Shown in pieces: positions 3,604-7,541 of a DNA stretch of 36,982 nucleotides. Position 1 is the first letter of the stretch. Each line of letters begins with the position of its first letter. Origin of the DNA: a bacterium (GTDB taxonomy: Bacteria; Bacteroidota; Bacteroidia; NS11-12g; UBA955); contig JAQSCZ010000031.1 in assembly GCA_029945665.1 (NCBI GenBank), positions 1 through 36,982 on the forward strand, read 5' to 3'. The position numbers and the translations under genes were made by a program. The notes beneath the pieces are model-generated. The model was not told the origin of the DNA. It saw only the letters and a list, made by a program, of their open reading frames with translations, and ran no database searches.

Positions 3604-3611
3604 TAAATTTG
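3604..3611 (+). promoter_or_regulatory. TAnnTTTG promoter box for tRNA-Arg
   Basis: TAAATTTG is an exact match to the Bacteroidota -7 consensus TAnnTTTG. It lies 34 bp before the mature tRNA 5' end, leaving a short 5' leader for RNase P to remove. No clear -33 TTTG is seen. Confidence 0.55.
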
Positions 3612-3645: not shown

Positions 3646-3717
3646 GGCCCTTTAGTTCAATGGATAGAATAGATGTTTCCTAAACATTTGATCCAGGTTC
3701 GACTCCTGGAGGGGCTA
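3646..3717 (+). tRNA. tRNA-Arg(CCT)
   Basis: A 72-nt cloverleaf read by eye. The acceptor GGCCCTT (3646-3652) pairs with AGGGGCT (3710-3716) with two G-T wobbles, and the discriminator is A3717. D-stem GTTC/GAAT (3655-3658, 3667-3670). Anticodon stem GATGT/ACATT around loop TTCCTAA, with anticodon CCT at 3679-3681. T-stem CCAGG/CCTGG around TTCGACT (3693-3709). CCA is not encoded. A terminator follows directly. Confidence 0.95.
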
Positions 3718-3721
3718 CTAC

Positions 3722-3761
3722 AAAAACTCAAATCCCGCTTTCAGAGGGATTTTTAGTTTTT
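3722..3761 (+). terminator. Intrinsic terminator of tRNA-Arg
   Basis: Nested stems AAAAACT/AGTTTTT (3722-3728, 3755-3761) and AAATCCC/GGGATTT (3730-3736, 3746-3752), ending in a T-rich tract. It begins 5 bp after the tRNA. The near-symmetric A and T flanks could let it stop transcription from either side. Confidence 0.75.
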
Positions 3762-3764
3762 GTT

Positions 3765-3809
3765 GCCCTGTGGCGTGTCCGCACCTTTGTGCGGACTCTG
3801 CCACAGGGC
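3765..3809. repeat. REP-like double-hairpin palindrome, copy 1
   Basis: Outer arms GCCCTGTGGC and GCCACAGGGC (3765-3774, 3800-3809) pair perfectly. Inside them GTCCGCAC and GTGCGGAC (3777-3784, 3789-3796) pair perfectly around a CTTT loop. The GC-rich composition stands out from the AT-rich surroundings. It resembles intergenic palindromic elements such as REPs; family membership is not established. Confidence 0.75.
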
Positions 3810-3909
3810 TACTCTTTCTTAATTATTCAAATCAAATTTTCTAGAGCGAGATTGATCCTTTTCATAGATAAATACGGAAATAATGAGAAGGTTTTTGAGG
3901 AAAAATGAT

Positions 3910-4028
3910 GACCCTTTAGCCGCTGACGAAGCAAAGCTTGTCAGGGTGCTGACCGAAGCGTCAGCATTCAACGGATAGAATAGATGTTTCCTAAACATTT
4001 GATCCAGGTTCGACTCCTGGAGGGGCTA
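3910..4028 (+). pseudogene. tRNA-Arg(CCT) copy interrupted in the D-arm
   Basis: The 10 bases at 3910-3919 match tRNA-Arg 3646-3655 except G2 to A, and the 62 bases at 3967-4028 match 3656-3717 except one T to C in the D-loop. So 70 of 72 tRNA positions are kept, but a 47-bp block (3920-3966) splits the gene after G10. The anticodon and T arms are intact. The G2-to-A change also breaks an acceptor pair with C71. I see no copy of the upstream tRNA promoter here. It is probably a dead gene unless the insert is removed from the RNA. Confidence 0.88.
3920..3966. repeat. 47-bp two-hairpin insert in the tRNA copy
   Basis: The insert folds as two adjacent hairpins: CTGAC-g-AAGC, loop AAA, GCTT-GTCAG, then GCTGAC, loop CGAAGC, GTCAGC. 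Its ends also pair as GCTGACG (3922-3928) and CGTCAGC (3959-3965). It is GC-rich in an AT-rich setting and resembles a REP doublet. No target-site duplication is obvious. Its boundaries are fixed to the base by comparison with the intact tRNA. Confidence 0.8.
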
Positions 4029-4186
4029 CAAAACTGGTATCTGTTAAACCCACAAAAAGTTCGATATCTCCCCTGTTTGATCTTCTAGGCACATTACATT
4101 CCATCAAGGGCGGACTGGCATACATTAATTTGACACTCCCATGACACAATCCTTAAATCTTCTCCCTTTTTAATACTTAACTTCCT

Positions 4187-4213: not shown

Positions 4214-7200
4214 TTGAGGCATATACATTCTACATGGCTGAACCGATTATTGGTTCCATATATCCTCCTGAACCTGCTTCTATGGCTTGACAAACCTTGT
4301 CATGCGCAATCCTGGGACTGGGTGCGTGCCTCCGAAACAACTGGCTTCAACTTTTATTCCAGCTGGCGGGACAGTGCAGCCAATATCTTTACTTGTCATC
4401 CTACGTATAACGACAATAATATCATCCGCCATTCTAAAGGATTTTCCGATACCTTACCAAAACTTGATTATATCAATAATAAGTTCCTGCTTATCAAAAG
4501 CAACCGCAGGGGCATTGTTCTATGGAAGTCTACCTGTAACGGTGAAATTGTTGATATGGACTTCTATGGAGGGTATGTCTACGTTCTCAGTCGGTTCCAT
4601 TACTCCCAGCAAATCCAGTTTACCTTCGGGGCTTCCAGTATCTCTAATATGAATGAAAAGAAAGACAAGGATTTCTCGCAGTTCTATACTTATTATATCC
4701 TTAAATACACCCACGCTGGACAGCCTCTTGAAGCCGCAAAGGTAATGCAGTTGACGAACAGAAGCAAAGTAAACAACTTTTTTGTTGCCGGCGAAAACAG
4801 GGTCCTGTTCTATATCCAGAATCAGTCTCCTGCGGGGAACGGCAGCCTCAGTCAGATGGTCTTCAGGAATACTACAATTAATAAAGATAATTCTTCGAAT
4901 AATTTCACTTTCCTCGTTTCCCTTGATATGCACAAGGATCTTAACTGGATAAAATGTTGTGGTTATACGGATTATTCATTGACGGAAAATGGGGCCAACC
5001 GCCTTTTATATGCCAATGGTTCCATCACAACGCTTGAATATGATAGCCTGCGCATAGTCAACAGGATGTATTTCAGGAAGCGCAGTATGCAGGGCGATAT
5101 CGTGAGCGAATTGCCCGTGTATGTAAAAAGATCCAACTGGCTGGTAGGCCTTAAGACTGACCTGCATGGCCATATATACTGCTATGGGAATTTTACGGAT
5201 TCTATGAGTTTTCGTAACCGCATCCTGTATGGCAAAAATAAAAACGGGAACTCGTACTTTTTAAAATTAGACGGTAATTTCAATGTTCTTGCTCATTGGA
5301 TACAGGAATCCCCATCTTCAAATATGCAAAATTTCTGTGTCGACAGCAAAGACAATGTTTATATGGCTATGATATTTTATGATTCGTTGCGGATCGGTTC
5401 GAAAATGATATACGGAAAAGCTAAAGGCACTTTATTTTTCGGGTCGTTTGTCCTGAAATTTCAGCCTGATCTTTCTAATGCCGAAGTGATTGAATTGAAA
5501 AGCAGCTCCATGAATACTCATTATGACGTATGGCTGGATAGATTTGACAACCTCTATACAAGCGGGGGTATGGAAAGTGTCCAGACGATACAGGTGAATG
5601 TAGATGACATGAAAATTGACCCGGGCTTAAATGGGTACTGTTCTTTCCAAGCCAAACTTAACCCTCAGAAGTTACGCTTGAAATACAATTCACTTTATTG
5701 CCGCGGCGATAGCCTCATCGCCGATGCAGATACAATTTATAAATGGTTCAAATGGCAGGTTGACGACAGCATAGTGTTATACGGACAGGCGGTGAAGGGT
5801 AATTTTACAGAAGGCTGGCACCATACCAGGCTTTTCGGATTCGAAAGCGATTCCGTGATGTCCTTGCGTATTGACAGTTTTCTTGTTATGCTTCCTCCGA
5901 AAGCCGCTCTGAATCTTAACCATTATAAAGTTTGCCGTTATGCGGGAACCTTGTTTACCGATAAATCCATTCTGAATATTACTTCAGGCAAAACCGTTCA
6001 TGCCTATATTTGGTTCGGGGACCAATCAGATACTTCCGTGCAGTTCGAGGTCAATGACAAGCCTCGACTTAACCTCGAACATACCTATCATGATACCGGC
6101 CGCTTTTCCATTCATTATATCATAGAATACTCGGGTTGCAGGGATACCCAGTTGCTCGACAAGGTCCTGTCGGTAATCGAATCGCCGAGACCGGGTTTCT
6201 CTGCCTTTCCACTCAGCGGCTGTGCTCCACTCACTGTGAACTTCAAGGACACCGTAACCGTCAATGTACGCCAGAAGGATTATTTCTTTTCAGACTTCGC
6301 TACATGGAAAAATATCGATATCAGCCAACCCAGTTTCCTCCATACTTTTACAAAACCCGGTGTTTACAATGTAGTCCAGAGCCTTGCCGGTTTTACCGGC
6401 TGCATCACCCGCACCGACTCTGTTCTCATCCATGTCAGCAAGGGACTTGGCATCGAAGACAGTTTGCATGTTTTCAACTCCACCGTCTCCGGCAGCAGAG
6501 CGCTTGTCAACTGGAAATCTATGGACGGCGCCCACACATATGAATTGTTGAGGGACGGGCAATTCGTCACTTTATTAACTGATACCTTCTTTCATGATAC
6601 CGGCGTATACTTGCGCGATGCCGAATATTCTATCAGGGGTTTTGACAGTTGTGGCAACCCCTGTAGTTCCGGTCGGGTTGGTAAACCCATTTTGCTCAAA
6701 GGAAACATTATTGGTTTTAATCATGGGGCCAAGCTGGAATATTCATCTTATTACCAATGGACGTCCGGCAAACTGCTTTACCGCTTACAGAAACTTTCGC
6801 CGGATAAGCAATGGAAAACGCTGCGTCAATCATCCGACACAAGCTACTTCGACGACCGAGGTTTTTTTGAAGAAGGGAAAACAGGTGCGACCTACCGCGT
6901 GGAAGCCTGTGCAATTTCCAACCCGGGTTTACTTACACACAGCAACCTTGTCTTCATCCCCTACATACCGGTAATATACTTGCCAAACGCCTTTAGTCCG
7001 AACGACGATGGAGTGAACGACCTTTACCAGCCCAAAGTATATGGCATAGAAACTTACAGGCTAACAGTTGTCAATCGCTGGGGTGAAATCATCTTTAAAG
7101 GTGAGCTTAACCAGGCCTGGCAAGCTGGCAATATTCCAGAAGGCGTCTATACAGTATTGATAAACTATACTACGAATGAAGGTCAGTCAGCAAGCCAAAG

Positions 7201-7225
7201 AATATTGGTGACGTTGTTGAAGTAA
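4214..7225 (+). CDS. Secreted PKD-like protein with gliding-motility C-terminal domain (CHU_C)
   Basis: A 1003-aa protein starting at TTG. The start is chosen because a hydrophobic signal peptide follows at once (to about residue 32, ending CHAQS) and a TAnnTTTG box lies just upstream. Residues about 40-560 look like a repetitive beta-propeller or SBBP-like region (several 'D..gn.Y' strands); this is not a firm domain call. PKD-like segments follow at about 560-655 and 655-740, then an Ig-like part. The last 90 residues, with LPNAFSPNDDGVND and VNRWGEIIFKG, are the CHU_C / type B sorting domain, so export by the type IX system is expected. Composition differs from its neighbours: for example 6181-6240 is 35 of 60 G+C, against 22 of 60 at 9001-9060. 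It lies between tRNA-derived repeats and is probably acquired. Confidence 0.9.
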   Translation: MRHIHSTWLNRLLVPYILLNLLLWLDKPCHAQSWDWVRASETTGFNFYSSWRDSAANIFTCHPTYNDNNIIRHSKGFSDTLPKLDYINNKFLLIKSNRRGIVLWKSTCNGEIVDMDFYGGYVYVLSRFHYSQQIQFTFGASSISNMNEKKDKDFSQFYTYYILKYTHAGQPLEAAKVMQLTNRSKVNNFFVAGENRVLFYIQNQSPAGNGSLSQMVFRNTTINKDNSSNNFTFLVSLDMHKDLNWIKCCGYTDYSLTENGANRLLYANGSITTLEYDSLRIVNRMYFRKRSMQGDIVSELPVYVKRSNWLVGLKTDLHGHIYCYGNFTDSMSFRNRILYGKNKNGNSYFLKLDGNFNVLAHWIQESPSSNMQNFCVDSKDNVYMAMIFYDSLRIGSKMIYGKAKGTLFFGSFVLKFQPDLSNAEVIELKSSSMNTHYDVWLDRFDNLYTSGGMESVQTIQVNVDDMKIDPGLNGYCSFQAKLNPQKLRLKYNSLYCRGDSLIADADTIYKWFKWQVDDSIVLYGQAVKGNFTEGWHHTRLFGFESDSVMSLRIDSFLVMLPPKAALNLNHYKVCRYAGTLFTDKSILNITSGKTVHAYIWFGDQSDTSVQFEVNDKPRLNLEHTYHDTGRFSIHYIIEYSGCRDTQLLDKVLSVIESPRPGFSAFPLSGCAPLTVNFKDTVTVNVRQKDYFFSDFATWKNIDISQPSFLHTFTKPGVYNVVQSLAGFTGCITRTDSVLIHVSKGLGIEDSLHVFNSTVSGSRALVNWKSMDGAHTYELLRDGQFVTLLTDTFFHDTGVYLRDAEYSIRGFDSCGNPCSSGRVGKPILLKGNIIGFNHGAKLEYSSYYQWTSGKLLYRLQKLSPDKQWKTLRQSSDTSYFDDRGFFEEGKTGATYRVEACAISNPGLLTHSNLVFIPYIPVIYLPNAFSPNDDGVNDLYQPKVYGIETYRLTVVNRWGEIIFKGELNQAWQAGNIPEGVYTVLINYTTNEGQSASQRILVTLLK

Positions 7226-7256
7226 AGTTCGACATTTTTCCCATCTCCTCTACTAC

Positions 7257-7296
7257 AAAAACTCAAATCCCGCTTTCAGCGGGATTTTTAGTTTTT
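7257..7296 (+). terminator. Intrinsic terminator after the CHU_C gene
   Basis: A perfect 9-bp stem AAATCCCGC/GCGGGATTT (7265-7273, 7279-7287) with loop TTTCA, extended by AAAAACT/AGTTTTT, and ending in a T tract. One substitution relative to copy 1 lengthens the core stem from 7 to 9 bp. Confidence 0.8.
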
Positions 7297-7299
7297 GTT

Positions 7300-7344
7300 G
7301 CCCTGTGGCGTGTCCGCAGCTTTGTGCGGACTCTGCCAAAGGGC
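7300..7344. repeat. REP-like double-hairpin palindrome, copy 2
   Basis: Same architecture as 3765-3809, but one mismatch in the outer arms (GCCCTGTGGC against GCCAAAGGGC) and one at the tip of the inner arms. Copy 1 is the better-preserved form. Confidence 0.7.
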
Positions 7345-7541
7345 TATTATTATCTCACCTCGAAAATTTAAAATCACTTTCGACATTATACATATTACAT
7401 TTACAAAAATGTATAATTGAATTTTATTTCAGATATGCCGATTTTTTATCCTCTAAAACCTGCTTCAGAGGATTAACCCTTTGTAAATATAATTCTAGCG
7501 CAAAGGATAAAAATTACCTTGATAAAAAAATAATTAAATGC

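Follow-up and report, generated by a model that had tools for sequence, protein, structure and literature searches.

Rickettsia palindromic elements are palindromes located within bacterial genes, mainly protein genes. The rtT repeats of the Escherichia coli tyrT operon are repeated tRNA fragments within a tRNA transcription unit; they correspond to tRNA 3' ends and lie downstream. The REP/RAYT system involves short imperfect hairpins in bacterial chromosomes, which are high-copy, dispersed and extragenic, and which have a constant, GTAG-like tetranucleotide at their foot. In the mitochondria of Allomyces and sponges, double-hairpin or repetitive hairpin elements occupy many sites, including sites inside structural RNA genes, and no flanking duplications were reported for those of Allomyces (PMC2800124). 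The T4/T6 enzyme SegB is a GIY-YIG homing endonuclease of tRNA regions, and when it cuts tRNA genes, tandem copies of the tRNA result (PMC13096335).

In this work, we describe a tRNA-Arg(CCT) copy from a Bacteroidota chromosome that is split by a small insert of two hairpins. The window, by which we mean the whole stretch of 36,982 nucleotides analysed, belongs to a draft assembly of 126 contigs, and the genomes with which it was compared are mostly drafts, many of them metagenome-assembled. The broken copy begins 264 bp downstream of an intact tRNA-Arg(CCT) gene, and the locus is composed as follows:

3604 to 3611, plus strand: Bacteroidota-type -7 box (TAAATTTG), a candidate for the intact tRNA (motif scan).
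3646 to 3718, plus strand: intact tRNA-Arg(CCT) (ARAGORN; Rfam RF00005, 62.3 bits).
3720 to 3763, plus strand: terminator-like hairpin followed by a T-rich tail, 3' of the intact tRNA (inverted repeat, sequence).
3762 to 3812, plus strand: second palindrome (GCCCTGTGGC...GCCACAGGGC) after the terminator-like hairpin (inverted repeat, sequence).
3910 to 3919, plus strand: 5' piece of the broken tRNA-Arg copy, covering tRNA positions 1-10 with G2A (70/72 comparison, shuffles, and an identical cut point at the homologous insert in L025).
3920 to 3966, plus strand: 47-bp double-hairpin insert between tRNA positions 10 and 11 (folds, pattern, homologous inserts).
3923 to 3944, plus strand: hairpin 1, CTGAC-g-AAGC-aaa-GCTT-GTCAG, a conserved structure that includes a bulged G (stem change compensated in a sister species).
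3947 to 3966, plus strand: hairpin 2, TGCTGAC-cgaagc-GTCAGCA.
3967 to 4028, plus strand: 3' piece of the broken tRNA-Arg copy, covering tRNA positions 11-72.
7250 to 7346, plus strand: 97% copy of the tail and terminator that belong to the intact tRNA (3715-3811), shortly downstream of the ORF at 4214-7225.

The first-pass annotation had described a tRNA-Arg(CCT) copy split after G10, with edges exact to the base, and this anatomy was confirmed. When 3910-3919 and 3967-4028 are joined, they are identical to the intact gene (3646-3717) at 70 of 72 positions, the differences being G2A, which leaves one mismatch in the acceptor stem, and T16C. The anticodon arm, the T-arm and the 3' acceptor strand are all intact in the 3' piece. 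ARAGORN did not call the broken copy, and within it Rfam matched 3963-4028 alone (37.5 bits). The short 5' piece agrees with the intact tRNA at 9 of 10 positions; a match of at least 9/10 anywhere in the 155 nt preceding the 3' piece arose in 34 of 20,000 shuffles, and the assignment is supported by the 5' pieces at homologous inserts, which match at 10/10 positions in the sister species and 19/19 in the same genome. The copy is located behind the terminator-like hairpin of the intact gene, and a motif scan from 3612 to the copy found no Bacteroidota-type -7 box.

The insert itself was correctly read at first pass as two adjacent hairpins, which is also how 3918-3970 folds (-22.8 kcal/mol, z -3.05). 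The pattern CTGAC-N(3-16)-GTCAG occurs twice in the window, both times within the insert, against 0.04 occurrences expected. Relative to the intact gene, the insertion caused no target duplication and no loss of bases, because the intact gene runs uninterrupted across the junction.

Further copies of the insert, whose absence the first-pass annotation had named among the grounds for refutation, were found as homologues of hairpin 1 in the same genome and in a sister species; the sequence of hairpin 2 had no other occurrence in its own genome. In 108 genomes of the order, the bulged hairpin CTGACG-AARC-NNN-GYTT-GTCAG was found in four copies when up to one mismatch was allowed, a search that more diverged members escape, and all four lie in D-arms of extra tRNA copies; a control pattern gave no matches in the same genomes. 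The carriers, present in 2 of the 108 genomes and at two tRNA loci, are the window tRNA-Arg copy, two tandem tRNA-Ala copies of the same genome and one tRNA-Ala copy of the sister species. In the genomes searched, the hairpin family is specific to tRNA copies, copies of different tRNA genes share the same hairpin, and it is confined to surplus copies beside an intact gene. The two tRNA-Ala inserts of the window's genome belong to tandem 125-bp repeats upstream of tRNA-Ala(GGC), each consisting of the first 19 nt of the tRNA, then two hairpins, then the next 8 nt of the tRNA, and one hairpin per repeat equals window hairpin 1 except in its 3-nt loop. In the sister species, the insert follows tRNA position 10 exactly, as in the window, and its stem shows a compensatory change from AAGC/GCTT to AAAC/GTTT. 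The insert position therefore differs among copies, being after position 10 or 19. These comparisons were based on structure, since a MAFFT alignment was offset by one hairpin. Insertion sites were clean in three comparisons with intact tRNAs (window Arg, own-genome Ala, sister-species Ala), and as the two own-genome tRNA-Ala copies represent one tandem duplication, the independent cases number about three. An independent analogue exists in another species, where a second tRNA-Arg copy (L108) carries a different palindrome in its D-loop. A viral match to the hairpin pattern, located inside a phage protein-coding stretch and lacking both the second hairpin and a tRNA, was judged to be due to chance, and the viral sequences searched for the palindrome-in-D-loop pattern gave no match.

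Like the mitochondrial double-hairpin elements, the window insert consists of two adjacent hairpins and made no target duplication, a resemblance of form only; unlike them, it resides in a bacterial chromosome and has very few copies, all in tRNA copies. It differs from the Rickettsia palindromic elements in that its host gene is a tRNA copy and not a protein gene. Short imperfect hairpins in a bacterial chromosome are shared with REP/RAYT, but the insert is neither high-copy nor dispersed in extragenic sites (three copies in 3.79 Mb, each inside a tRNA copy), and no constant foot tetranucleotide is found at all insert sites: TTAG precedes the insert in the window Arg and sister-species Ala copies, and the own-genome Ala copies are cut after TTTGG. 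A RAYT-like gene (L231:4047-4526; NF047646, E 2e-21, 76.4 bits against a cut-off of 80) was observed about 170 bp from a palindrome-bearing tRNA relic. As a candidate mover it is only suggestive, because it is flanked by its own, different hairpin.

Palindromes in extra tRNA copies extend well beyond this hairpin family. Extra copies were sought in the window's genome by tRNA similarity at 31 tRNA loci, and all 11 that were found, belonging to tRNA-Arg, Ala, Gly, Val and two kinds of tRNA-Met, contain a perfect stem of at least 7 bp, compared with 46 of 932 background 90-nt windows (~5%). These palindromes are GC-rich and are located at the D-arm foot, in the D-loop, after the anticodon or in the T-loop. 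In the genus, the 18-bp palindrome TCCCGATAGCTATCGGGA is dispersed, being found inside copies of a wide range of tRNAs as well as at numerous non-tRNA sites. Of 67 sites inspected, 12 are 35-210 bp away from a tRNA, and the majority of these 12 are the D-loop of a degenerate extra tRNA copy. In the class, D-loops stretched between TAGCTC and GGYTAGAGC were found in 41 of 395 genomes, and a stem of at least 5 bp is present in 28 of the 53 long D-loops, against 5.3 expected from shuffles; the long D-loop palindromes comprise 25 different sequences in 20 genomes.

Across Bacteroidota, tRNA genes representing about ten amino-acid specificities are closely preceded by a truncated 5' copy of themselves that bears a palindrome in its D-loop. 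In comparison with the rtT repeats, these copies are mostly 5' halves, lie upstream and carry palindromes. When named genomes were scanned for one palindrome in its D-loop setting, 46 stretches were returned (Salinimicrobium, Gramella, Chryseolinea, Marinoscillum and others). Of these, 39 are followed within about 520 bp by a tRNA on the same strand; as this set was picked by its palindrome, it informs on where the palindrome is located and not on the fraction of relics that carry one. Five of the remaining stretches lie near contig ends, one is apparently a distant relic, and one is not tRNA-like. The acceptor 5' strand is that of the own tRNA at 7/7 positions in 31 of 38 copies (cross-locus mean 2.0/7), and the 38 copies end at tRNA positions 19-36. 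In the complete genome CP012155 (L203), 11 tandem units with 80-bp spacing, each a palindrome-bearing tRNA-Asn 5' half, precede tRNA-Asn. About 44 nt of the tRNA-Asn copy are identical between genera while the flanks differ, and between related species the copies and their palindromes vary. No Rfam family other than tRNA covers the relics. A literature search, from whose scope most subscription journals fell, returned no paper on palindromes in bacterial tRNA copies or relics; recurrent hairpin-interrupted spare tRNA copies, with the hairpins nearly always placed in arms and loops of the tRNA itself, look like a real and apparently undescribed pattern in Bacteroidota, a novelty only as good as that search.

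Stand-alone GIY-YIG ORFs form a further recurrent element of these neighbourhoods. In the genus, 14 of 23 come shortly after a tRNA of the same strand, compared with 0 of 7 long homologues. ORFs of this type, of about 80-130 aa, were observed directly 3' of tRNA genes (L239-L265, L027, L043, L066, L079), and several are followed by a palindrome-bearing 3' tRNA copy. In three named genomes (L204, L205 and L233), a palindrome-bearing 5' half of tRNA-Met is separated from the intact tRNA-Met by such an ORF, and at L204 this arrangement consists of repeated 419-bp units. The position of a stand-alone GIY-YIG gene beside tRNA genes resembles that of SegB, and by this analogy cutting is putative here; unlike SegB, the genes are chromosomal in Bacteroidota, and the window locus is without one. 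It is plausible that they are a source of surplus tRNA copies. At the window locus, neither a GIY-YIG ORF nor a recognisable remnant was found, with only chance matches between the two tRNA-Arg copies, so for the window copy itself a nuclease-driven duplication step is putative.

We favour the reading, with a probability of about three in four, that the broken copy is a surplus tRNA copy inactivated by the clean insertion of a small double-hairpin element. It is likely, too, that the window copy exemplifies a broader tendency in Bacteroidota for extra tRNA copies next to functional genes to collect GC-rich palindromes at an arm foot or loop. A duplicated, dispensable tRNA-Arg(CCT) copy would have been the starting point, and a small double-hairpin DNA element would have inserted cleanly at the foot of its D-arm, inactivating the copy. 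Such elements may move as single-stranded DNA or RNA hairpins, and their insertion would be tolerated by surplus tRNA copies only, which may in turn arise by tRNA-gene duplication, possibly provoked by stand-alone GIY-YIG nucleases. The palindromic mobile element in the D-arm proposed at first pass is therefore retained in part: homologous inserts in other tRNA copies argue for it, while transposition is a step that we infer, as no before/after strain pair was seen. The proposal of an insertion stood, and what had been viewed as a single locus turned out to be a recurrent pattern over many tRNA genes in many Bacteroidota. The double-hairpin element is very rare, with two of its four copies derived from one tandem duplication, which is unlike a successful mobile repeat, and no transposase has been linked to it.

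The first-pass annotation had also raised RNA processing that removes the insert, and we regard it as extremely improbable that this is a split or intron-bearing bacterial tRNA that matures after loss of the 47 nt. The retention of nearly all tRNA positions would fit such a molecule, and a fold forced to form the acceptor stem reaches -40.9 kcal/mol against a minimum of -42.7; with these 1.8 kcal/mol apart, the broken copy could, according to the model, retain a tRNA fold to which two hairpins are added. However, an intact tRNA-Arg(CCT) exists, a terminator lies upstream of the copy, no promoter was found, the folds show two plain hairpins with no bulge-helix-bulge at the exon junction, and Rfam gave no intron match in the window. 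Most related copies have no 3' half, those upstream are devoid of the 3' acceptor strand and would be unable to mature, and the insert position is not constant. A group I intron needs far more than 47 nt, its core exceeding about 200 nt. A different account dispenses with a mobile hairpin: a nuclease, for instance a tRNA-linked GIY-YIG enzyme, or an integrase would break the tRNA gene, repair of the break would duplicate it, and template-switching would make the palindromes locally as repair scars. It agrees with the many different palindromes found at the same site, with the GIY-YIG ORFs adjoining tRNAs, including those that separate an intact tRNA from a palindrome-bearing 5' half, and with the ability of T6 SegB to cut tRNA genes and drive their amplification (PMC13096335). 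We nevertheless consider it unlikely for the palindromes, since tRNA genes of two kinds contain the window hairpin and TCCCGATAGCTATCGGGA is shared among tRNA copies and non-tRNA sites, which indicates that sequence travels from site to site.

Another possibility is that the palindrome-bearing copies are functional RNAs, of which the window copy would be a full-length relative. The hairpin would lock the D-arm of a 5' tRNA half in the pre-tRNA leader, so that the half is barred from pairing with the 3' half of the real tRNA, or acts as a decoy or regulator. Most 5' copies do lie between promoter and tRNA on the same strand and match the acceptor strand of their own tRNA across specificities; this identity can, however, be explained by gene conversion or recent duplication. 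The identity of the tRNA-Asn copy between genera is not what pure decay would lead one to expect, but copies and palindromes vary among related species, and the window copy is behind a terminator, with no promoter found. A tRNA-Ile-like copy of Chryseolinea (L196:1067-1168) keeps the acceptor, D-, anticodon and T-stems by sequence, with palindromes in both D-loop and T-loop; its lowest-energy predicted fold is not a cloverleaf. This copy is one of several odd tRNAs in an array (L196:523-2643). Taken together, we judge the functional reading to be quite improbable. It is a tentative and rather doubtful idea that Bacteroidota carry tRNA-specialised hairpin elements and that the resulting palindrome-locked 5' halves, placed between promoter and tRNA in up to 11 tandem units, were co-opted as a conserved leader RNA.

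tRNA genes are among the most constrained known, yet, time after time across the phylum, surplus copies of them are found with palindromes placed in the same arms. If the palindromes are mobile DNA, tRNA arms would be a preferred landing place; if they are functional, many tRNA operons would possess a type of leader RNA not described so far. Either reading would account for some of the tRNA-like fragments in Bacteroidota genomes and would tie them to tRNA-neighbouring GIY-YIG genes.

The surroundings of the broken copy are rearranged, and the repeat of 3715-3811 at 7250-7346, which includes the tRNA-Arg tail, the terminator and a nested palindrome, is part of these rearrangements and separate from the insert. 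It follows an ORF of 1003 aa with a type IX secretion C-terminal domain (4214-7225), an arrangement that suggests a cassette-like insertion between the tRNA copy and the tail. The motif GTTCGA[T/C]A[T/C], often with a CTAC-like end after it, is present at window positions 4059 and 7227 and also in L091-L094; several species have it 3' of tRNA-Arg(CCT), where copies of the tRNA tail lie nearby, and it may be a marker of recurrent insertion at the 3' end of the tRNA. A 46-bp perfect repeat of the tRNA-Ala 3' end was likewise observed 18 kb downstream of tRNA-Ala (G016:C47:18774-18819 and L025:851-926), as expected of an integrated island.
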